Positions 1,496 to 58,000 of a stretch of 64,000 nt of DNA are shown here, one piece after another. Location: NCBI RefSeq assembly GCF_001536285.1, contig NZ_FAOZ01000003.1, positions 248,001 to 312,000 on the forward strand, read 5' to 3'. Numbering within the stretch: the first letter of the stretch is position 1; every line of letters begins with the position of its first letter. This stretch comes from Parafrankia irregularis. GTDB taxonomy: Bacteria > Actinomycetota > Actinomycetes > Frankiales > Frankiaceae. Below the pieces are notes generated by a model. That model made no database searches and was not told where the DNA came from. It saw only the letters and a list, made by a program, of their open reading frames with translations. Position numbers and translations under genes: made by a program.

Positions 1496-1801
1496 GCCGG
1501 GTTTCGGTGCCGCTCGCCACCGAATGCGCGCCGACGCCGACCGCGTCGCGGTGAGGCAGAGCGGACGTTGCGGCGCGGACGTTGCGGCGCGGGGGTGCGG
1601 CGCGGGGGTGCGGCGCGGCCGGTGCGCCTTTTCCCTCTCGCGGTGCATGGACACGGATGCCGCGGGTCCGCGCCGACGACGGAAAAGACCCGGTCTGGTT
1701 GCTCGTGCTTCCGCGCGTGTGCTAGACAGGTGCCCAACACGTATTGGGCACTCGCCCAAGAGTTTTCTGACGCGCGCGGCGCCACTCGGAGGGAGAGCGG
1801 G
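1496..1801. other. Intergenic region upstream of P450
   Basis: No convincing gene is seen. The first half contains short direct repeats of GCGGACGTTGCGGCG and GCGCGGGGGTGCG type (about 1560-1620). The second half carries the operator-like inverted repeats at 1730-1759 and the P450 ribosome-binding site GGAGGGAG at 1788-1795. Confidence 0.6.
1730..1759. promoter_or_regulatory. Operator-like alternating half-sites upstream of P450
   Basis: GTGCCCAA (1730-1737), CACGTA, then its complement TTGGGCAC (1744-1751) form a perfect 8-bp inverted repeat. A third half-site GCCCAA (1754-1759) pairs again with TTGGGC across ACTC. The array ends about 42 bp before the P450 start. It looks like a dimer site plus an extra half-site, or alternative hairpins in the leader. 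The binding protein is unknown. Confidence 0.55.
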
Positions 1802-17428: not shown

Positions 17429-18361
17429 GTGACGATCCTGCGTATCGAACGCGCCGTCTACGCGGTCGACGATCTACCCACCTGCACAAGGTTCTTCCAG
17501 GACTTCGGCCTCACCCTGTCAGCCGCCCACGATGACGCGGACAAGGACGAGAACGAGGACCGGGCCGTGTTCACGACCCTGAGCAACCAGGCTGTCGAGC
17601 TCCGGCGGTCCGACGACCCGTCCCTTCCCCCGCCGGTCGAGCCCGGACCCACGATCCGCGAGGTGGTCTGGGGCGTCGACACGCAGGAGAACCTCGACCA
17701 GCTGGTCCGCGACCTGCGGACCGACCACGAGGTCCGGGTGGACGCCGCGGGTGTGGCGCATCTGTTCGACGAGACGGGCTTCGGCCTCGGGCTCGCCGTG
17801 GCCGCCCCCGCCGAGCCACCGGCCGTCGAGATCCCGGTCAACCGGTTCGGTGCCGTCGGGCGCTGGAACCGGGGCCTCGACCCGTTCGCACCGGTGCGCC
17901 CGCTGCGCCTGTGTCATGTGGCGCTGAACATCCCCAAGAACGGCTGGCAGAAGGCGGTCGCGTTCTACACCGACCGGCTGGGTTTTCGCATCACCGACCA
18001 GGTGCTGCCGATGGGAACCTTCATGCGCTGCGAAGGTGACTTCGACCAGCACACCTTGTTGTTGTGCCACCGGCCCGACCGCGCCGGAATCAATCACACC
18101 TCCTACGAGGTGAACAGTTTCGACGACGTCATCCTGGGCGGGAACCAGATGATCGAGGCCGGCTGGCGCGAGGCCAGGCGGCTCGGCCGGCACACCGTCG
18201 GGTCGAACGTCTTTCGTTTTGTTCACGCGCCGTGCGGCGGGCGGGTGGAATACGCGGCTGACATGGACCGCGTCGACGACTCGTACGCGCCCCGAACGCA
18301 CGAGGTCACCCCGCCGCACCACCTCTGGACGCTGCAGACCAACAGGGAGAGCGCACAATGA
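17429..18361 (+). CDS. Two-domain extradiol-type ring-cleavage dioxygenase (VOC superfamily)
   Basis: A 310-residue protein with two VOC modules, the size and layout of type I extradiol dioxygenases that open catechols next to the diol. The C-terminal module holds the Fe(II)-ligand set: His in RLCHVALNI (about residue 163), His in INHTSYEV (about 223) and Glu in RVEYAADMD (about 274). The N-terminal module is diverged and lacks ligands, as expected. GTG 17429 has GAGGAG upstream. The stop overlaps the aldehyde dehydrogenase start (ATGA). Together with the downstream genes it defines a meta-cleavage-like operon. The aromatic substrate cannot be deduced. Confidence 0.88.
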   Translation: MTILRIERAVYAVDDLPTCTRFFQDFGLTLSAAHDDADKDENEDRAVFTTLSNQAVELRRSDDPSLPPPVEPGPTIREVVWGVDTQENLDQLVRDLRTDHEVRVDAAGVAHLFDETGFGLGLAVAAPAEPPAVEIPVNRFGAVGRWNRGLDPFAPVRPLRLCHVALNIPKNGWQKAVAFYTDRLGFRITDQVLPMGTFMRCEGDFDQHTLLLCHRPDRAGINHTSYEVNSFDDVILGGNQMIEAGWREARRLGRHTVGSNVFRFVHAPCGGRVEYAADMDRVDDSYAPRTHEVTPPHHLWTLQTNRESAQ

Positions 18362-19845
18362 CGACGCAGCCGGGCATTTACGAGGTGCCCGAGCCGGTTG
18401 CGGTCGCGACCGACTATCCGACCCTCGCGATGCACATCGACGGCCGCTGGACCGACGGCAGCGGTGACCGCCGCGAGGCCGTCATCAACCCGGCCACCGG
18501 CACGCCGCTGGGCAGTGTTCCGCTGGCGGAGAAGGCCGACCTGGACGCCGCGCTCGCGGCGGCGGCCCGCGGCTACCGGATCTGGCGCGACACGCCGGTC
18601 GAGCGACGGTCGCGGATTCTGCGCCGGGCCGCGGACCTGCTGCGTGAACGCGCCCCCCAGATTGGCCGGGTGATGACGCTCGAGCAGGGCAAGGCACTGT
18701 CGGAGGCCGTCGGTGAGGTCCAGCGGGTGGCGACCCTGCTCGACTGGGACTGTGAGGAGGGCCGCCGCGCCTACGGGCGGATCATCCCGACCGGGCCCGG
18801 TGAGACCCTCACCGTGCGCCGCGAACCGATCGGCCCGGTCGCCGCCTTCACGCCCTGGAACTTCCCGGCCGGCAGCCCCATGCGCAAGATCGCGGCCGCG
18901 CTGTCCGCCGGCTGCTCGATCGTGATCAAGGCCTCGGAGGAGGTGCCCGCAACCGCCTGCGCGCTGGTGCGGTGCTTCGAGGAGGCCGGGGTTCCGGCCG
19001 GGGTCCTGAACCTGGTCTTCGGCGTCCCGGCGGAGGTGTCCGAACATCTCGTCGCCTCGCCGACGATCCGGTTCGTCGCGTTCACCGGGTCGGTGCCGGT
19101 CGGCAAGAAGCTCGCCGGGCTCGCCGCCGCGGTGATGAAGCCGACGATCATGGAACTGGGTGGGCACGCCCCGGTCATCATCTGCGACGACGTCGATCCG
19201 GCGGCCGCGGCCGCCGCCTGCGCCCGCGGCAAGTACACCAACGCCGGTCAGGTGTGCACCTCACCGAGCCGCTTCTTCGTGCACGACAGCATCCACGACG
19301 AGTTCGTCGACGCGTTCGTCAAGGCCTCCGAGGCGGTCGTGGTCGGGGACGGCCTGGCGCCGGGCGTCCAGATGGGCCCGTTGGCCAACGAGCGCCGCCG
19401 GGCCGCCGTCCGGCGCCTGGTCGACGACGCCCGCGACCGCGGGGCGGCCGTGCTGACCGGCGGCGAGGACCTCCCCGGCCCGGGATTCTTCTACCGCCCG
19501 ACCGTGCTGGCGGACGTCCCCGCCGACGCCGAGATCCTGCGGGACGAGCCGTTCGGCCCGGTGGCTCCGGTGATCCGCTTCCGCGCGCTCGACGACGCGA
19601 TCGCGCAGGCGAACGCGCTCCCCTACGGCCTGGCCGCCTACGGCTTCACCCACCGGGCGGACACCGTCGCCCGGCTCACCGACGCCTTCGAGGCCGGGAT
19701 CCTGTCGATCAACCATGTGGGCGGGTCCGTGCCGCAGGCGCCGTCCGGGGGCTTCAAGGAGAGCGGCCACGGGCGCGAGGGGGGATCCGAGGGCCTGGAC
19801 GGCTACCTGGTCACCAAGCGCGTCTCGCACCGGCTGGCGATCTGA
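18358..19845 (+). CDS. NAD(P)-dependent aldehyde/semialdehyde dehydrogenase
   Basis: A complete 495-residue aldehyde dehydrogenase closest in pattern to succinate-semialdehyde/hydroxymuconic-semialdehyde dehydrogenases. The key parts are FTPWNFPAGSPMRKIAAAL, VIKASEEVPATA, FTGSVPVGKKL, MELGGHAPVII with the base Glu, NAGQVCTSPSRF with the nucleophilic Cys, and DEPFGPVAPV. The start overlaps the dioxygenase stop by four bases, so the dioxygenase product could be passed on as a semialdehyde. Its stop codon is the first element of the tandem minicistron array leading to the FAH gene. Confidence 0.93.
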   Translation: MTTQPGIYEVPEPVAVATDYPTLAMHIDGRWTDGSGDRREAVINPATGTPLGSVPLAEKADLDAALAAAARGYRIWRDTPVERRSRILRRAADLLRERAPQIGRVMTLEQGKALSEAVGEVQRVATLLDWDCEEGRRAYGRIIPTGPGETLTVRREPIGPVAAFTPWNFPAGSPMRKIAAALSAGCSIVIKASEEVPATACALVRCFEEAGVPAGVLNLVFGVPAEVSEHLVASPTIRFVAFTGSVPVGKKLAGLAAAVMKPTIMELGGHAPVIICDDVDPAAAAAACARGKYTNAGQVCTSPSRFFVHDSIHDEFVDAFVKASEAVVVGDGLAPGVQMGPLANERRRAAVRRLVDDARDRGAAVLTGGEDLPGPGFFYRPTVLADVPADAEILRDEPFGPVAPVIRFRALDDAIAQANALPYGLAAYGFTHRADTVARLTDAFEAGILSINHVGGSVPQAPSGGFKESGHGREGGSEGLDGYLVTKRVSHRLAI

Positions 19846-19893
19846 TGCGGACGATCTGATGCGGGCGATCTGATGCGGGCGATCTGATGCGAT
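19838..19893 (+). repeat. 14-bp tandem repeat forming a chain of stop-start minicistrons
   Basis: CGATCTGATGCGG plus one base occurs four times in tandem (19838-19851, 19852-19865, 19866-19879, 19880-19893). Each unit contains TGATG, a stop overlapped by a start. The first TGA ends the aldehyde dehydrogenase. ATGs at 19845, 19859 and 19873 each open a four-codon frame (Met-Arg-Thr/Ala-Ile) ending in the TGA of the next unit; the fourth ATG (19887) starts the FAH gene. No Shine-Dalgarno sequence is seen, so repeated termination-reinitiation is the likely mode of coupling. Confidence 0.8.
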
Positions 19894-20690
19894 GGTGCCG
19901 TTTCGAACGCGGTGGCGTGCCGAGCTTCGGGGTCATCGTCGACGAGCAGGTCTGCCCCGTCGACGGTGACCCGTTCGCCGGGCACCGGCCCAGCGGCGAG
20001 CCCGTGGCGCTGGCCGAGGTGCGGCTGCTGGCGCCGGTGCTGCCCCCGACCTTCTTCGCCGTCGGCCTGAACTACGCCAGCCACATCGAGCACGCGCGGG
20101 AACGCGGCTACGCCCTCGCGGTGATGCCCGAGCGCCCGGAGATCGGTTACCGGGCCAACAGCGCACTGATCGGGCCCGGCGAGGCCATCGTCAAACCGGC
20201 CGACTGCACCGGCCGGTTCGAGACCGAGGGCGAGCTGGTGGCGGTGATCGGGCGCCGGGTGCGGCACTGCTCCCGCGAGCAGGCCGTCGACGCGGTGTTC
20301 GGCTGGACGATCGGCAACGACGTCAGTGCCCGGGAGTGGCAGCGCAGCGACCGCACCCTGTGGCGGTCCAAGAACAGCGACACCTTCAAGCCGATGGGTC
20401 CGTGGATCGAGACCGACGTCGACGCTCTGGCCGCCACCACCACGGTCAGTCTGGACGACACGGAGGTCGCGCGGTTCGCCACCGGAGACATGATCTTCGA
20501 TCCCTACGACTACATCCGCGAGATCTCCCGCTACATCACGCTCATGCCCGGCGACGTCCTGTGGATGGGCACCGAGTCGGTCGTGGCGATGGAACCGGGC
20601 CAGACCGTCGGCGTGACGATCTCCGGCATCGGCACGCTGAGCAATCCGGTGGAGCTGGAGAAGTCGTCAGCAGCGGCCGAGGAGAAATGA
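19887..20690 (+). CDS. Fumarylacetoacetate hydrolase (FAH)-family protein
   Basis: A 267-residue FAH-fold metal-dependent hydrolase, decarboxylase or isomerase. The core is FAVGLNYASHIEHA, then FETEGELVAVIGRRVRHC carrying the Glu-x-Glu metal ligands, GNDVSAREWQ, KNSDTFKPMGPWI and GDVLWMGTESV. In meta-cleavage pathways such proteins process 2-oxo-dienoate intermediates. Translation starts at the ATG in the fourth unit of the 14-bp repeat and has no evident ribosome-binding site, implying dependence on upstream translation. The stop overlaps the next start. A role after the dioxygenase and dehydrogenase is likely; the exact step is not determinable. Confidence 0.9.
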   Translation: MRWCRFERGGVPSFGVIVDEQVCPVDGDPFAGHRPSGEPVALAEVRLLAPVLPPTFFAVGLNYASHIEHARERGYALAVMPERPEIGYRANSALIGPGEAIVKPADCTGRFETEGELVAVIGRRVRHCSREQAVDAVFGWTIGNDVSAREWQRSDRTLWRSKNSDTFKPMGPWIETDVDALAATTTVSLDDTEVARFATGDMIFDPYDYIREISRYITLMPGDVLWMGTESVVAMEPGQTVGVTISGIGTLSNPVELEKSSAAAEEK

Positions 20691-21166
20691 TGAGCAACCG
20701 ACCCGCCTATATCCATCACGTCAACTTCCCGACCACCGATCCGGAGCGCACGAAGGCCTGGTACTCGAAGGTTTTCGGGCTCAGGGCGATCACCCCGAAG
20801 AGCAACACCAGGGTGGTCCTGATGACCCGCGGGAACTTCGACCTGCATTTCACCCCGGTCGAGGAGATGGACCGCATGTCGCCCTACCACTTCGCCATGG
20901 AGGTGGAGGACTGGGACGGCTTTCTCGCCCACCTGCACGAACTGGGCGTCCGGCACACCCGGCCCATCGAGCGGCCCGAGAACAACTCGAAGTTCTGCTA
21001 CATCCACGACCCCGACCACACCATGATCGAGATCGTTTACCACGGCAACCGCCCCGGGGCCGGCGGCGGAGCGCCACCCCGCCAGGCCGCCGCACCCGCA
21101 CCCACCCCCGCGGCCGCGCCCGCCTTCATCGACGACTCCGCCGACTCCGCCGCCAAGGGAGCGTGA
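20690..21166 (+). CDS. Single-domain VOC/glyoxalase-fold protein
   Basis: A 158-residue VOC protein. Its core AYIHHVNFPTTDPERTKAWYSKVFGL is the first beta-alpha-beta unit with a possible His ligand, and DPDHTMIEIVY carries the terminal Glu ligand. The last 40 residues are a Pro/Ala-rich, probably disordered tail. Two adjacent ATGs exist (20687 and 20690); the second is favoured because GGAG ends five bases before it. It overlaps the FAH stop (TGATG). It may be a second dioxygenase, a lyase or an isomerase of the pathway. Confidence 0.85.
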   Translation: MSNRPAYIHHVNFPTTDPERTKAWYSKVFGLRAITPKSNTRVVLMTRGNFDLHFTPVEEMDRMSPYHFAMEVEDWDGFLAHLHELGVRHTRPIERPENNSKFCYIHDPDHTMIEIVYHGNRPGAGGGAPPRQAAAPAPTPAAAPAFIDDSADSAAKGA

Positions 21167-21169
21167 CCC

Positions 21170-21973
21170 ATGCCCACCACGACGTCCTCGGACGGCACCG
21201 GGATCTACTACGAGGTGCACGGCACCGGCCCGGCCGTCCTGTTCGTGCACGGTTCGGGCGGGCACCACGCCGCCTGGTGGCAGCAGGTTCCCGTGCTGCG
21301 CGACCGGTTCACCGTCATCACCCTCGACCTGCGCGGTTTCGGCCGTTCGGACTCCACCATGGACGAGTTCGACAGCCGGGCGTTTCCCGATGACATCACC
21401 GCCGTTCTCGTCGACTCCGGGGTGCAGCGCGCGGTGCTGGTCGGGCAGTCCATCGGGGCCGCGGCCGCGCTGCGTGCCGCGCTGCGCCGGCCCGGTCTCG
21501 CCGCCGGTGTGGTGCTCGCGCACTCGCTCGGCGGCATCGACCATCCTGACCTGGCCGCACGGGTCCAGGCCGACCGGGCCGAGGCGGTGAAGCTGCCCGT
21601 CCTGGACCGGCTGCTCACTCCCCGCTTCCAGGCCGAGGAGCAGGAGAAGACGTTCCTGTTCCGGCAGATGGGCACCTTCAACACCGCGAAGATGGCGGAC
21701 CTTCGCAATCTCAACACCGACGGTCCGACCGTCGCCGAGCTCGCCGGCTCCGGCATTCCGCTCTGTTTCCTCGCCGGGGAGAACGACGCGGTGCTGCGCC
21801 CGGACACCGTCCGCGCCGCGGCGGCACTTCTCCCGAGCGCGACGCTGGAACTCGTCCCGGCCGCGCCGCACTCGATGTACTGGGAGGCGCCCGACCTGTT
21901 CAACGCCGCCCTCATCCGCTTCCTGGAAAAGGCGTACGCCTCGGAGCTCGCGACCGCTGGAGCGTCGGCATGA
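21170..21973 (+). CDS. Alpha/beta hydrolase (meta-cleavage-product hydrolase-like)
   Basis: A 267-residue alpha/beta hydrolase with oxyanion region VLFVHGSGGHHAAWW, nucleophile elbow VGQSIGAA, the acid in AGENDAVLRP and catalytic His in AAPHSMYWEAP. Size and motifs match carbon-carbon hydrolases of meta-cleavage pathways (BphD/HsaD type), but also carboxylesterases and 3-oxoadipate enol-lactonases. It starts three bases after the VOC stop. The next gene starts within its stop codon (ATGA). Position beside an extradiol dioxygenase favours a ring-fission-product hydrolase. Confidence 0.88.
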   Translation: MPTTTSSDGTGIYYEVHGTGPAVLFVHGSGGHHAAWWQQVPVLRDRFTVITLDLRGFGRSDSTMDEFDSRAFPDDITAVLVDSGVQRAVLVGQSIGAAAALRAALRRPGLAAGVVLAHSLGGIDHPDLAARVQADRAEAVKLPVLDRLLTPRFQAEEQEKTFLFRQMGTFNTAKMADLRNLNTDGPTVAELAGSGIPLCFLAGENDAVLRPDTVRAAAALLPSATLELVPAAPHSMYWEAPDLFNAALIRFLEKAYASELATAGASA

Positions 21974-25146: not shown

Positions 25147-26178
25147 TCAGCAGGCGGGCACGACGGGCCGGGACGGCCGGGCGGACAGCCGCTCCCGGCC
25201 GAAGATCGCGCGCAGCTGCGCCAACGGCACCGTTCCCCGGGCGATCTCGCGCCGGATCCGCCGGATCCCGCGCAGGTCGGCCAGGGCGGTCGAGACGATG
25301 TCGACCCGGCTGTCCGGATCGTCGATCCAGTCGACGGTCGTCTCGTGGATGCGCATCCCGCACCGCTCCGCCAGGACCAGCAGCTCCGTGTCGAAGAACC
25401 ATCCGTTGTCGGCCACGTGGGGCAGCAGCGCGGCGGCGACGTCGGCCCGGATGGCCTTGAACCCGCACTGCGCGTCGGTGAAGTGCACCCGCAGCGTCGC
25501 ACGCAGCAGCAGGTTGTAACAGCGGGAGATGACCTCCCGCTTCGGGCCGCGCACCACCCGCGAGCCACGGGCCAGCCGGCTGCCGATCGCCAGCTCCGAA
25601 TGGCCTGACAGCAGCGGCGCGAGCAGCGGGAGCAGCGCGGCGAGATCGGTGGACAGGTCGACGTCGCAGTAGGCGAGCACCGCCGCGTCGGAGGCCGCCC
25701 ACACCGTACGCAGCGCCCGGCCGCGGCCCTTGGCGTCGAGGTGCGTCACGGCGACACCGGGCAGTTCGGCGGCGAGCCCGTGTGCCGTGGCCAGGGTCGT
25801 GTCGGTGCTGGCGTTGTCCGCGATCGTGATGCGGAACGGGTAGGGGAAGGTCGCGCTCAGATAGGTGTGCAGCCGCCGCACGCTCGGAGCGAGATCCCGC
25901 TCCTCGTTGTACACGGGAACGACCAGGTCGAGCACCGGGGCAAGCCCTTCCCCGCCCGGTGCCGGAACGACCGTCCCGGGCGCTGCCACCGCGGCCCCGA
26001 CAACCGCGGCCCCGACAACCGCGGCCCCGACAACCGCGGCCACGGCCGTCGTCACCGCGGGCGTGGAGCCGACGACCGGGGCCGGGAGCGTCGCGTCGGT
26101 GTTCGAGGCCCCGCCGTTGTGGCGACGCGCGGCCGGCACCCCGGCGACCGGTGCCCCGACGAACAGTGAGGATGTCAT
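25147..26178 (-). CDS. GT2-family glycosyltransferase (ALG5/DPG-synthase-like)
   Basis: A cytosolic GT-A glycosyltransferase of 343 residues. It shows DLVVPVYNEERDL, ITIADNASTDTT, the DxD-type AYCDVDLSTDL, IGSRLARGSRVVRGPKREVISRCYN and CGFKAIRADVA, the pattern of dolichyl-phosphate glucosyl/mannosyltransferases that charge polyprenyl phosphate. No C-terminal membrane part is present. The N-terminal 80 residues are Ala/Val-rich with a tandem AAVVG repeat (15-bp DNA repeat, about 25990-26040). ATG 26178 lacks a clear ribosome-binding site. It could supply a lipid-linked sugar to PMT at 35 kb, but no linkage is shown. Confidence 0.85.
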   Translation of the reverse strand: MTSSLFVGAPVAGVPAARRHNGGASNTDATLPAPVVGSTPAVTTAVAAVVGAAVVGAAVVGAAVAAPGTVVPAPGGEGLAPVLDLVVPVYNEERDLAPSVRRLHTYLSATFPYPFRITIADNASTDTTLATAHGLAAELPGVAVTHLDAKGRGRALRTVWAASDAAVLAYCDVDLSTDLAALLPLLAPLLSGHSELAIGSRLARGSRVVRGPKREVISRCYNLLLRATLRVHFTDAQCGFKAIRADVAAALLPHVADNGWFFDTELLVLAERCGMRIHETTVDWIDDPDSRVDIVSTALADLRGIRRIRREIARGTVPLAQLRAIFGRERLSARPSRPVVPAC

Positions 26179-29824: not shown

Positions 29825-31438
29825 TCAGCCGCGCAGCGCCTTCTTGGCCATCTTGCCGGTCGGTGTACGCGGCAGCTCGGTCACGAAGTCGAACCTGCGC
29901 GGGATCTTGTAGGAGGCGATCCGCCCGCGCAGGAACTCCGTCAGCTCGGCCGCCAGACCGGGCCCCGGCATGATGCCCGCGGCGGGCTGCACCACCGCCC
30001 GGACGGATTCACCCATCTCCTCGTCGGGCATTCCGACGACGGCGACGTCGAACACCTTGGGGTGCAGGACGAGACTGTCCTCGATCTCCTGCGGATAGAT
30101 GTTCACACCGCCGGAGATGATGAGGAACACCTTCCGGTCGGTGAGGTAGAGATAGCCGTCGGCGTCGAGATACCCGACGTCACCTGTCGTGTTCCAGGTC
30201 GGGTGGTCCGGATGCCGTGCCTGGGCCGTCTTCTCCGGGTCGTTGTGGTATTCGAACAGCGGGTCGTGGCGTTCGAAGTACACGGTCCCGGTCTCGCCCG
30301 GCGGCAGCGGCGTACCGTCATCCGCGCAGATGTGCAGAATGCCGAGCGTCGCCTTCCCCACCGTTCCCGGACGGTGCAGCCATTCCTCGCTGCTGGCGAG
30401 CGTCGTGCCGATGGCCTCGGTGGCGGCGTAGTACTCGTGGAGGATCGGGCCCCACCAGTCGATCATCGCCTGTTTCACCGTGACGGGGCACGGCGCCGCG
30501 GCGTGCACGGCGACCCGATGGCTCGACAGGTCGTACTGTTCCCGCGCCTCGGCTGGCAGCTTCAGCATTCGGACGAACATCGTGGGCACCCACTGGCTGT
30601 GCGTGACCCGGTGGCGTTCGATGGCAGCCAGCGCGGACTGCGCGTCGAAAGCACGCATCAGGACGACCGTTCCACCAACGGCGTGGATGACGGTCGAGTA
30701 CCGCAGGGGCGCCGCGTGGTAGACCGGCGCGGGAGACAGGTACACGGTGTCGGCGTCGAAGCCGTACATACGCGGGAGAAGCTCGGTGTAGAGGTCGCCC
30801 GGCTCGTCGACCTGCCGTTCCGGCAACGGCTTCTTGATTCCCTTCGGCCGGCCGGTGGTGCCTGACGAGTACAGCATGTCGGCCCCGCGGGGCTGCGCCG
30901 GCAGCGGCTCCGGCGAGGCGCCCGCCAACGCCGCCTCATAGGAGCCGAAGCCACCCGGAAGGGATCCGCTCGGCTGCGGCTGTGCCTGGGTCTGCGCCTG
31001 CGGCTGCGCCTGGGCCTGGGCCTGGGCCTGGGCCTGGGCCTGGGCCTGGGCCTGGGCACCGAACATCAGCCGGACATCCACGGCGGGCGTGTCCATGACG
31101 ACGGTGGCCGCGACGTCCCGCAGCGCGGCCGAGGCGATCAGTACCCGCGCCCCGCAGTCGTTCACGATGTAGCTGATCTCCGGCACCGCGAGATGCCAGT
31201 TGACCGCGGTGATGTAGAAGCCCGAACGCACCGCCGCCCAGTACACCTCGTAGGCCTGCGGAGTGTTGTCCGCCAGCAGCGCGACATGGTCGCCCCGCCG
31301 GAAGCCCGCGTCGTAGAGATACCGGGCTAAACGTAGTGAATTGTCCTCGAGCTCACGGTAGGTGAGCCGCTCCCCCGTCTCCGCGATGATCACAGCCGGT
31401 TTGTCGGCGAACCTCGCAGCGAACGTTCCGGGATACAT
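29825..31438 (-). CDS. Fatty acyl-CoA synthetase (FadD-like) with an Ala-Gln repeat insertion
   Basis: A 537-residue ANL adenylating enzyme activating a carboxylic acid via acyl-AMP to acyl-CoA. Motifs: YSSGTTGRPKGIKKPL (P-loop), YYAATEAIG, GDVGYLDADGYLYLTDRKVFLIISGGVNIYPQEIE and the C-terminal PRTPTGKMAKKALRG with the catalytic Lys. ATG 31438 has GGAGGAG nine bases upstream. Between about residues 128 and 158 lies an Ala-Gln-Pro tract including eight perfect AQ units, in a loop of the N-terminal domain. It diverges from the NmrA/sigma operon across a repeat-rich promoter region. Substrate unknown. Confidence 0.92.
   Translation of the reverse strand: MYPGTFAARFADKPAVIIAETGERLTYRELEDNSLRLARYLYDAGFRRGDHVALLADNTPQAYEVYWAAVRSGFYITAVNWHLAVPEISYIVNDCGARVLIASAALRDVAATVVMDTPAVDVRLMFGAQAQAQAQAQAQAQAQAQPQAQTQAQPQPSGSLPGGFGSYEAALAGASPEPLPAQPRGADMLYSSGTTGRPKGIKKPLPERQVDEPGDLYTELLPRMYGFDADTVYLSPAPVYHAAPLRYSTVIHAVGGTVVLMRAFDAQSALAAIERHRVTHSQWVPTMFVRMLKLPAEAREQYDLSSHRVAVHAAAPCPVTVKQAMIDWWGPILHEYYAATEAIGTTLASSEEWLHRPGTVGKATLGILHICADDGTPLPPGETGTVYFERHDPLFEYHNDPEKTAQARHPDHPTWNTTGDVGYLDADGYLYLTDRKVFLIISGGVNIYPQEIEDSLVLHPKVFDVAVVGMPDEEMGESVRAVVQPAAGIMPGPGLAAELTEFLRGRIASYKIPRRFDFVTELPRTPTGKMAKKALRG
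31009..31056. repeat. (CCTGGG)8 hexanucleotide coding microsatellite
   Basis: Eight perfect CCTGGG units on the plus strand encode Ala-Gln repeats in the FadD-like protein. Imperfect units extend the tract to about 30973. Unit length is a multiple of three, so copy changes keep the frame. Confidence 0.95.
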
Positions 31439-31761
31439 CGACTCATTCTCCTCCACGTCGTGATCTCCCCCGCCGCCATTGTCGCCGTCCACCGGAGCAC
31501 CGGCCCACCCCTTGCCCGCACCCGTCACCTCCGGGCCGGCCGGCTCCGCGCCCGGTCACATCGGCGCCCGGTCACATCGGCGCCCGGTCACATCGGCGCC
31601 CGGTCGCATCGGCGCCCGGTCGCATCGGCGCCCGGTCGCATCCGGGCCCGGTCACATCCGGGCCGCGGGCTTCGACTCCTCTGTGTGCGCCTCGCTCGGG
31701 GCGCACCGCCGGGCGTGGGACGTCCCGGTGTCTCCCGGAGCGAGGCGCGAGGAGCGGCGGC
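31439..31761. other. Divergent promoter region with 16-bp minisatellite
   Basis: No gene. It separates the divergent FadD-like and NmrA-like genes, holds seven copies of a 16-bp repeat (31551-31662), a possible ECF41-type promoter (GGTCACA at 31650, CGAC at 31673, 16-nt spacing) and the palindrome GGGACGTCCC near 31715. Confidence 0.6.
31551..31662. repeat. 16-bp tandem repeat, seven copies
   Basis: Units begin at 31551, 31567, 31583, 31599, 31615, 31631 and 31647 with consensus CCCGGTCRCATCGGCG. The first three and the last carry GGTCACAT, the middle three GGTCGCAT; the final units also switch CGGCG to CCGGG. There is no spacer, so it is not CRISPR-like. Confidence 0.9.
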
Positions 31762-55064: not shown

Positions 55065-58000
55065 CGGGTGCCCCGCTGCTCCGGCACGGACGCCGAACCG
55101 AACGCCCCGCCAGGCCCTCGTGGATCAGCCCTGTCCGTCCCGCCAGGCCCGCCCGCCCCGTCCGGCACCGGAGCCGGGGTTGGGGTTGGGGTTGGGGCGA
55201 GCAGCCGCGACAGGTGCCGGGCGATCACGTCGACGTTCGGGCGGTCGATCAGTGAGGTGTGGTCACCGGGAACCGTGACGATCTCCAGGTTCGGCACCGT
55301 CGCCGCCCAGCCCAGGTCGGCGTCGTCACGCAGGTAGCGGGGGTCGAGCGCGACCGTCACCTGGTGGGGCGAGGCCGCTCGGTAGAGCACCGTGCGTCCG
55401 TCGTAGCGGCGCGGCTGGTAGTTCTCGGCGATCCGCGCGTCGAGGTAGGAGGTGCGCTGGTGGTGCAGCACACCGGGGGTCATGGCGATGTCGGAGGCGG
55501 CGAGGATCTCGAAGATCCGTTCGACCTGCTCGGCGTCGTCGGCACCGGCCAGCTCGTCGTAGGGCAGGTCGAGGTCCACGCCGTAGACCTCGCGCAGGTA
55601 GTCGACGAACCGCCCGAAGCGGGTCAGGAGCTGATCCGTGGCGGACAGCCCGGCCGGTGCCGGCAACGGCAGAATCGTGTCGATCATCAGGACGACCTCG
55701 ACCTCGCCGCCCGCCGCGACGATCTGGTGCGCGACCTCCTGCGCGAGCAGGCCACCGAAGGACCACCCACCCAGCCGGTACGGCCCCGCGGGAGCGATCT
55801 TCCGGATCATGGAATGATAGGCGGCGGCCTTGCGCTCCACCTGCCCGATGTCGTCGAGCCGCTCCAGGCCGAACACGGGCACCCGCGGATCCAGCAGCCG
55901 CACGAGCGGCTCGTACACGGCGGTCGGACCGCCCGCCGGATGGAACAGGAACAGCGGCGGCTGCGAACCGGCACCGCGCAGCACGCGCACGCCGGCCCCC
56001 GCGTTGCCCATCAGACGGTCCCGGATCACCTCGGCGAGAGCTTCGATCGTGCGCGCCCCCGCAAGCTCCGCGCGCTCCCGCGCGTCGGCACGGGTGGCCC
56101 CGTCACCGAGACGTTCGGCGACCAGCCCGAGGAAGCGTTCGGTCTCGACCGGGCCGAGAACCGTGGCCAGATCGTCGGTCACCCCGATCGGCTCCGTCGT
56201 GACCGTCGCCGCGAGCAACGCCACCAGCCACCGCTCCGCCGGCTCCCGGGCAGCCATCGGCATTCCCCGGCCCGAGACCTCCCCGGTAACCGCGGCGGTC
56301 TGCGCCGGCACCGCTCCCGCCGCCGGCACCGCTCCCGCCGCCGGCACGGCCCCCGCCGAACCGGGCCGCGCCTGCGTGGATCCTGTCGGCGACCTCCCAT
56401 CGGGCGCGGAGTCCGACGCCAGGCCGAGGGCCTCCACCAGGTGTGCCTGGAGATCACCGAGGCTGGCGCCGCGCAGCAGCAGACGGACCGGAAGCGGCAG
56501 GCCGAAGTCGTGCTCGACGGCGTTGCGTGCCCGCATCGCCATCAGCGAGTCGAACCCGAGCTCCGTCAGCGGGACGTCGGCATCCACCTGCTGCGGTTCC
56601 AGACCCATGATCCCCGCGACGCGGCTGCGCAGCCGATCCGCGATCACGGCCCGGGCCCGCGCCGGCGGCAGGTCCGCCAGCGCCGTGACGCCGGGCCAGG
56701 AGTCGTCCTGCGCACCCGGATCGGCGCCGAGCACGTCGGCGAAGAAGGCGAGATCAGCGAGGCCGGGCAGCAACGCCAGCGCACGGGCCGGCGAGAGCCG
56801 CACCACCCCGGTGTGGGCCCGGCCGGTGGCGACCACCGTCTCCAGGGCCTCCATCGCCGTCGTCGGCACCAGCGGTTCGAGCAGCGCGTTCGTGACCCCG
56901 GCGGCGCCCCCGACCTGGGCCCAGGCACCCCAGTTGATGCTCGTCGCCGGCAGGCCGCTCCGGCGGCGCAGTGCGACCAGCGCGTCGAGCCAGGCGTTCG
57001 CGGTCGCGTACGAGGCCTGCCCGGGCGAGCCGAGCAGCGCCGCCGCCGAGGAGTAGACCAGCCACCAGTCCAGTTCCGTACCGGTCTGCGCGGCCAGCCG
57101 CGCGGTGGCCACGTGCAGGTTCCAGCCGCCGACGACCTTCGGACGCCAGACGGCGGCCAGCGCGGCCGGATCCAGGTCCAGGACCGACTGGTCCGCCAGG
57201 GCTCCCGCCGCGTGCGCGACGCCCCGCAGCACCAGATCACCGGCCGTGGCCTCGGTCAGCAGCCGTGCCGCGGTCTCCGGCAGCGCGATGTCACCGGTGA
57301 CGATGACGATGTCGCACCCACCGCCGCCGGTGATCTCCCCGGACGTGCCAGACGTGCCGGACGTGCCGGACGTGCCAGACGTGCCGGACGTGCCAGACGT
57401 GCCGGACGCGGCGGCTTCGGCAGGTTCGGCGAGTTCGCCGGCGGCGGTGGCGGGCTGCGGAACGGGCCCGGCGTCGTTCGCGACCCGGGCCAGCCCGAGG
57501 CCCGGGATCATCCGCCATCCGGGCGGTGCCGCGCCGGCCTGATCCTGTTCCCGGGGCAGAGTCCGCCCGTTCAGAACGACCCTGGAGGCCCCGCCGTCCA
57601 CCAGCCGACGGGCCAGCAGCAGGCCCAGCCCGCCGAGCCCACCCGTGACGATGTAGGAACCCGGCCGCACCAGCGGCACCGCGGCCGCCTCCACCGGCCC
57701 AGCAGGGGACGCGGAGCCGCCTGGCTCCTCGGCGACGCGTGTCAGCCGGGCGGCGAACCGGCGCCCGTCACGCCAGGCCACCTCGTCGTCGGCCGCGTCG
57801 GAGATGATCTCCACCGCGACCGGCGCGAGCGCCGCGGCCTCGTCGTCCTCCCCGGTGCCGGCGGCGGTGCCGGGGGCTGTGCCGGCGGCGAGATCGAGGT
57901 CGAGCAGCGTCGTCCGCAGGAACGGATGCTCCAGCGCCAGCACACGGACCAGGCCACGCAGCGCCGCCTGGGAGGGCACGGGCAGGTCCCCGTCGGCGAC

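Follow-up and report, generated by a model that had tools for sequence, protein, structure and literature searches.

How do ribosomes pass from one gene to the next when a tandem repeat has been inserted exactly between them? This question is raised by an aldehyde dehydrogenase gene and a fumarylacetoacetate-hydrolase (FAH)-family gene of Parafrankia irregularis, within the 64,000-nucleotide stretch analyzed here (the window). Their junction consists of four 14-bp tandem copies at 19836-19891 (Tandem Repeats Finder: period 14, 4.0 copies, 95% matches, score 105), each containing TGATG. The units are near-identical, with unit 2 (GACGATCTGATGCG) departing from GGCGATCTGATGCG by a single G-to-A change, and across the whole 9.5-Mb genome (a draft of 82 contigs) this 14-bp motif pair occurs at one site only, the dehydrogenase-FAH junction. 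The original prediction had described the same four units at 19838-19893, a phase shift of 2, and its reading of their content is confirmed throughout: the dehydrogenase TGA (19843-19845) lies in unit 1, units 1 to 3 each start a Met-Arg-Ala/Thr-Ile peptide that stops in the next unit (MRTI*, MRAI*, MRAI*), and FAH starts in unit 4 (Table 1). The complete N-terminal domain of FAH (PF10370, profile positions 1-50) begins to match at the Met of ATG 19887, which lies beyond a gap of 41 nt containing three nearer ATGs, all belonging to other cistrons. Each TGA in the chain lends its A to the next ATG, so that consecutive cistrons overlap by 1 nt throughout, and every pair in it is co-directional with overlapping stop and start, the arrangement that characterizes translational coupling. 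Shuffling the 41-nt gap yields an unbroken stop-start chain in approximately 0.1% of shuffles; the observed chain exceeds chance.

Table 1. Genes, repeat units, and minicistrons at and around the dehydrogenase-FAH junction (window coordinates).
Feature	Coordinates	Strand	Evidence and remarks
Extradiol-dioxygenase-like (VOC/glyoxalase superfamily) gene	17429..18361	+	PF00903; weak NCBIfam matches, biphenyl-2,3-diol dioxygenase
Aldehyde dehydrogenase gene, 495 aa	18358..19845	+	PF00171, E=6e-155
Repeat unit 1, GGCGATCTGATGCG	19836..19849	+	Holds dehydrogenase stop and minicistron 1 start
Minicistron 1, ATG CGG ACG ATC TGA (MRTI*)	19845..19859	+	1-nt overlap at both ends; sequence, chain analysis
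Repeat unit 2, GACGATCTGATGCG	19850..19863	+	Sequence, tandem-repeat scan
Minicistron 2, ATG CGG GCG ATC TGA (MRAI*)	19859..19873	+	Sequence, chain analysis
Repeat unit 3, GGCGATCTGATGCG	19864..19877	+	Sequence, tandem-repeat scan
Minicistron 3, ATG CGG GCG ATC TGA (MRAI*)	19873..19887	+	Sequence, chain analysis
Repeat unit 4, GGCGATCTGATGCG	19878..19891	+	Holds minicistron 3 stop and FAH start
FAH-family gene, 267 aa, Rv2993c-like N-terminus	19887..20690	+	PF01557, E=7.5e-54; PF10370
Glyoxalase/VOC-family gene	20690..21166	+	PF00903; single TGATG overlap with FAH
Alpha/beta hydrolase, weakly PcaD-like	21170..21973	+	PF00561; next operon gene after glyoxalase/VOC

The unit count itself appears trustworthy. 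Short repeats can be miscounted in a draft genome such as this one, yet a 56-bp array fits in one short read, an A/G difference marks one of the units, and Parafrankia sp. EUN1f carries an independent 2-unit array, which together make an assembly artefact very improbable.

The gene neighborhood resembles an operon for aromatic meta-cleavage, with the order extradiol-dioxygenase-like, aldehyde dehydrogenase, FAH family, glyoxalase/VOC, alpha/beta hydrolase, HbpS-like, and MetE-like. Other junctions in this operon are tight, with ATGA at 18358 (a 4-nt overlap of the dioxygenase-like and dehydrogenase genes), TGATG at 20688, and ATGA at 21970. Among the six operon gene starts tested, FAH is the sole one without a Shine-Dalgarno (SD) site, its anti-SD duplex energy being -2.9 kcal/mol against -6.2 to -9.0 kcal/mol at the five others, and the glyoxalase/VOC gene that follows FAH has a good SD (-8.7 kcal/mol) despite its own TGATG overlap. 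The minicistron starts also lack an SD (-2.9 to -3.5 kcal/mol), and the earlier remark that no SD is visible therefore stands. An independent promoter or ribosome site for FAH, named in advance as part of what would speak against the proposed device, was looked for; FAH has no SD, and no sigma-70-like promoter was found in a scan that covers actinobacterial promoters poorly. That coverage, and the existence of internal operon promoters in general, leave some room for FAH being expressed on its own, from a promoter within the dehydrogenase gene or from a leaderless or internal start. We regard this as quite improbable, given the lack of an SD and of a promoter-like site and the direct stop/start overlap of the ancestral junction (see below), which points to coupling.

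The geometry of the array suggests how coupling would be maintained. As had been noted from the sequence, the period shifts the frame at each step: 14 is 2 mod 3 and a unit holds no other in-frame stop, so each new copy forms a 4-codon cistron running from one TGATG to the next. More generally, a duplication that spans TGATG, has a length of 2 mod 3, and lacks an in-frame stop makes a minicistron automatically, whereas a length of 0 mod 3 would give a longer downstream protein and one of 1 mod 3 would leave the nearest ATG out of frame. A ribosome finishing the dehydrogenase would begin again at the ATG that overlaps the stop, synthesize MRTI, MRAI, and MRAI in turn, and arrive at the FAH start. 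FAH would be reached by four restarts at 1-nt overlaps instead of one 41-nt jump, with the repeat units serving as stepping stones that hold it coupled. Bacterial coupling works best at -4 to +3 nt and falls 3- to 10-fold or is lost by about +30 to 40 nt; of the starts available in phage fr, the one closest to the stop is used by the ribosome (PMC12548453). In addition, reinitiation does not always require an SD (PMC6728339). Given a distance of +41 nt between the dehydrogenase stop and FAH, three ATGs that come sooner, and a preference for the nearest start, serial termination-reinitiation is the simplest working model. ORFs as short as four codons readily lose peptidyl-tRNA by drop-off, which could make such a relay leaky. 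Coupling kept its full strength up to +25 nt in some E. coli studies (PMC12548453), and a gap with no relay in it might therefore suffice. On balance, tandem duplication of a coupled junction probably keeps termination-reinitiation going across the 41-nt gap, with the minicistrons as stepping stones.

Two other roles for the array were considered and rejected. A function as RNA structure is at odds with a predicted fold of the junction that is weaker than that of shuffled sequences (z=+1.74) and with the lack of any inverted repeat there. An N-terminal extension of FAH through the array is incompatible with a stop in the FAH frame at 19857, from which no ATG, GTG, or TTG follows before 19887.

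The comparison of unit number among relatives that the original prediction had proposed was made here between species, and the number does vary. Parafrankia sp. EUN1f (96% DNA identity at the locus) has 2 units and hence one minicistron, and another Parafrankia (76% DNA identity to the 4-unit locus) has 1, so that copy number differs among three Parafrankia species, as in a variable-number tandem repeat. The gene pair is present in three of six Parafrankia genomes, one for each unit number (4, 2, and 1). In Pseudofrankia, Amycolatopsis, Actinospica, and Paractinoplanes the dehydrogenase-FAH pair meets in a single direct TGATG overlap, and the Streptomyces relatives have ATGA or, mostly, a gap of 5 to 8 nt. 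Outside Parafrankia we found no relay at this junction: chains occur in 2 of 24 distinct gapped junctions, both in Parafrankia. Given the single direct overlap in relatives, the array most likely originated by tandem duplication of one coupled junction. The ancestral dehydrogenase/FAH junction would have been a direct 1-nt TGATG overlap of the termination-reinitiation type, and a 14-bp segment across it would have been duplicated in the Parafrankia lineage, leaving EUN1f with 2 units and P. irregularis with 4. The near-identity of the units suggests that the array is young, and for that reason it appears to show no selection by itself.

Variation among close species would also be expected if the array were a tuning device, as originally proposed. 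Each extra unit would then add an extra imperfect restart, FAH output would fall roughly as p^n, with p the per-step efficiency and n the unit number, and slippage would permit a population to adjust the FAH:dehydrogenase ratio quickly. The wide range of restart efficiencies in the literature (PMC6728339) accords with such a device. Each unit number, however, is represented by one genome, with no phenotype tied to it, and relays are rare and unenriched in the sampled Parafrankia DNA; we consider tuning unlikely. The sample (~560 kb, with part of contig C3 standing for the whole genome) contains 3 chains at 351 gene ends (the locus described here, its EUN1f orthologue, and one doubtful case), no more than sham-start controls gave. 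On this sample, a genome-wide enriched class of relays in Parafrankia is rejected.

The background of short repeats is high. Short tandem arrays are common in the window (138 TRF rows), and the array units are near-identical, as expected if slippage alone had expanded a minisatellite, with FAH reached by 70S scanning or its own weak initiation and the minicistrons incidental. Triple-TGATG arrays of period 14 occur in 12 of 35 Frankiaceae genomes and in 12 of the remaining 360 among 395 actinomycete genomes, many of them away from gene junctions, pointing to frequent short tandem duplication in Frankiaceae as a whole. Against a neutral origin of this kind, the +41 gap exceeds the usual coupling window, ATG 19845 would be used first (PMC12548453), and FAH has no SD to initiate from. 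Neutral expansion with incidental minicistrons therefore seems to us possible but doubtful; the array may be a nearly neutral side product of slippage in which coupling is preserved by chance. Elsewhere in the window, high-scoring arrays at 31548-31658 (16 bp x 6.9), 30980-31057 (6 bp x 13), 25988-26041 (15 bp x 3.6), and 57339-57408 (9 bp x 7.8) are possible further copy-number-variable sites.

We observe that arrays of this type also link genes in other operons. Actinomycete genomes were searched for three TGATG at fixed spacing, and array loci were classified according to the long ORFs on either side of them that show coding-type third-position GC. Nine arrays link a gene stopping in the first unit to a gene starting in the last, eight of them in unrelated operons. 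The gene pairs include CDP-alcohol phosphatidyltransferase and GT2; TetR and inositol phosphatase; an impB/mucB/samB-family polymerase (imuB-like) and DNA polymerase III alpha (dnaE2-like); solute-binding protein and ABC permease; FBPase and DUF1918; DoxX and a ChsH2-like protein; and DUF1990 and HemW, while the second period-17 pair has no Pfam family match. Because their unit sequences are unrelated, the junction arrays represent independent events; in three of them (the one of period 11 and two of period 14) the units are degraded, which makes these weaker cases. All periods are 2 mod 3, namely 11 (n=1), 14 (n=6, including the Parafrankia locus), and 17 (n=2), and none of the 3 period-13 or 11 period-16 arrays lies at a gene junction. 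Per genome search this amounts to 0 junction arrays in 474 for periods 13 and 16 against 9 in 869 for periods 11, 14, and 17, a difference with a probability of about 0.02 if the rates were equal. The absence is suggestive only, and speaks against junction arrays being neutral minisatellites. At the imuB-like/dnaE2-like junction (L266-L269), the chain is unbroken in the array carrier and in each of its three closest relatives although the gap has changed in sequence and even in length (27 or 28 nt), the length difference swapping two 4-codon minicistrons for one of 9 codons.

Arrays of period 15 were rejected as relays. They are the 0-mod-3 counterpart and produce in-frame N-terminal repeats of five residues, as at locus L209, where a 15-bp junction array (~1504-1535, minus strand) gives such a repeat in the downstream protein. 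At L141 (G274, period 14, six TGATG) and L234 (G233, period 17, nine TGATG), long stop-start arrays were also seen whose flanks hold no clear genes in the frames that a relay would require.

The DUF1990-hemW junction could be followed across 127 species of one actinomycete genus (L298-L424). A direct overlap is present in 81 species, an unbroken chain in 38, and neither in 8. Chains comprise one or two minicistrons of 3 to 7 codons each, with ATG, GTG, or TTG starts, TGATG or NTGA overlaps, and diverse peptides (MVSEL, MAVRH, MPRHH, MNSAL, MTSML, VRR, VNARR, and others), and a chain is present in 33 of the 40 distinct gaps, where shuffles predict 1.9. In one species (L299) an ATGA overlap stands in place of a broken TGATG and the chain still closes, and in sister species that have no chain (L387 and L391) both of its ends were lost together. 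Among 13 species with a 16-nt gap, the tree requires 46 changes in the 12 ordinary columns, whereas the 4 columns that matter only to a relay, the TG after the stop and the TG before the start, require none; with even distribution the chance of this is (12/16)^46, or ~2e-6, an approximate figure for a partly unresolved tree. Natural selection appears to maintain the hemW relays, which retain start, stop, and frame amid divergence elsewhere, a pattern that a neutral minisatellite would not predict. On the same tree, relay and other states interchange ~18 times, with at least 5 interchanges forced by well-supported branches, and this exchange between relay and direct states would also suit a tuning function. 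The hemW junction is stronger evidence for the relay mechanism than the Parafrankia locus, and the evidence of selection for relays comes from this other gene pair in another genus and not from the dehydrogenase-FAH locus.

The original interpretation is upheld in part: its stop-and-restart relay is well supported, and tuning by copy number is possible. Frame geometry, an FAH start without an SD, an ancestral TGATG, independent relays elsewhere, and conservation in another genus all support the relay, and from these patterns we infer translation of the minicistrons and a dependence of FAH on it. The relay is real, well-formed, and recurrent, and adds a serial minicistron form to known translational coupling. 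More tentatively, chains of minicistrons of 2 to 6 codons might be a recurrent, selected form of actinobacterial coupling that follows insertion at stop/start overlaps, with their number an evolvable dial of protein ratios. If true, ribosomes can be handed through four- to five-codon cistrons one after another, and relays offer a natural test of the efficiency of repeated termination-reinitiation and of the behavior of very short ORFs, for which the unit numbers of Parafrankia and hemW form a ready-made natural series of restart efficiency. The 2-mod-3 rule for duplication length in turn predicts which junction repeats leave an operon working. Since minicistrons fall below the size limit of gene finders, relays resemble plain intergenic gaps.

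Our search of the literature, with subscription journals outside its reach, returned no account of genes linked by four-codon relays in series, and several known systems share parts of the arrangement. Termination-reinitiation at overlapping gene pairs (TGATG or ATGA) gives tight coupling (Huber et al. 2019, PMC6728339); these pairs have the same overlaps as the Parafrankia relay, do not always need an SD, and presumably work by the same per-step mechanism, but join two real genes through one overlap, whereas the relay strings together 4-codon cistrons that have no obvious role as proteins. The closest known case is the MIRU of mycobacteria, e.g., at senX3-regX3 (Supply et al. 1997, cited in PMC12548453), where repeated small ORFs overlap the ends of neighboring genes, coupling survives the insertion, and a variable copy number serves strain typing. 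MIRUs are dispersed, apparently mobile units of 40 to 100 bp with shared sequence, whereas the Parafrankia unit is 14 bp and born from the junction. The Parafrankia junction resembles a MIRU in being a tandem repeat between operon genes with small ORFs overlapping its neighbors, and differs in that its 14-bp motif pair belongs to no dispersed 40- to 100-bp family, occupying one genomic site, with the other arrays unrelated to it. MIRU unit lengths (53, 77, and 101 bp) are likewise 2 mod 3. The junction arrays as a group are locally born, have 11 to 17 bp per unit, and are mutually unrelated in sequence. In coupled mycobacterial uORFs (cited in PMC12548453) and the two-codon minigene of axe-txe (PMC8708949), a very short ORF likewise delivers the ribosome. 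Such uORFs and minigenes are located in leaders or come with an SD of their own, whereas the Parafrankia minicistrons are intergenic, without SD, fed by the upstream gene, and serial. Finally, bicistronic-design cassettes are SD-driven; they are engineered and single, whereas the Parafrankia relay is natural and in series. What these cassettes (cited in PMC12548453) have in common with the relay is that translation of a short cistron brings the ribosome to the target gene.
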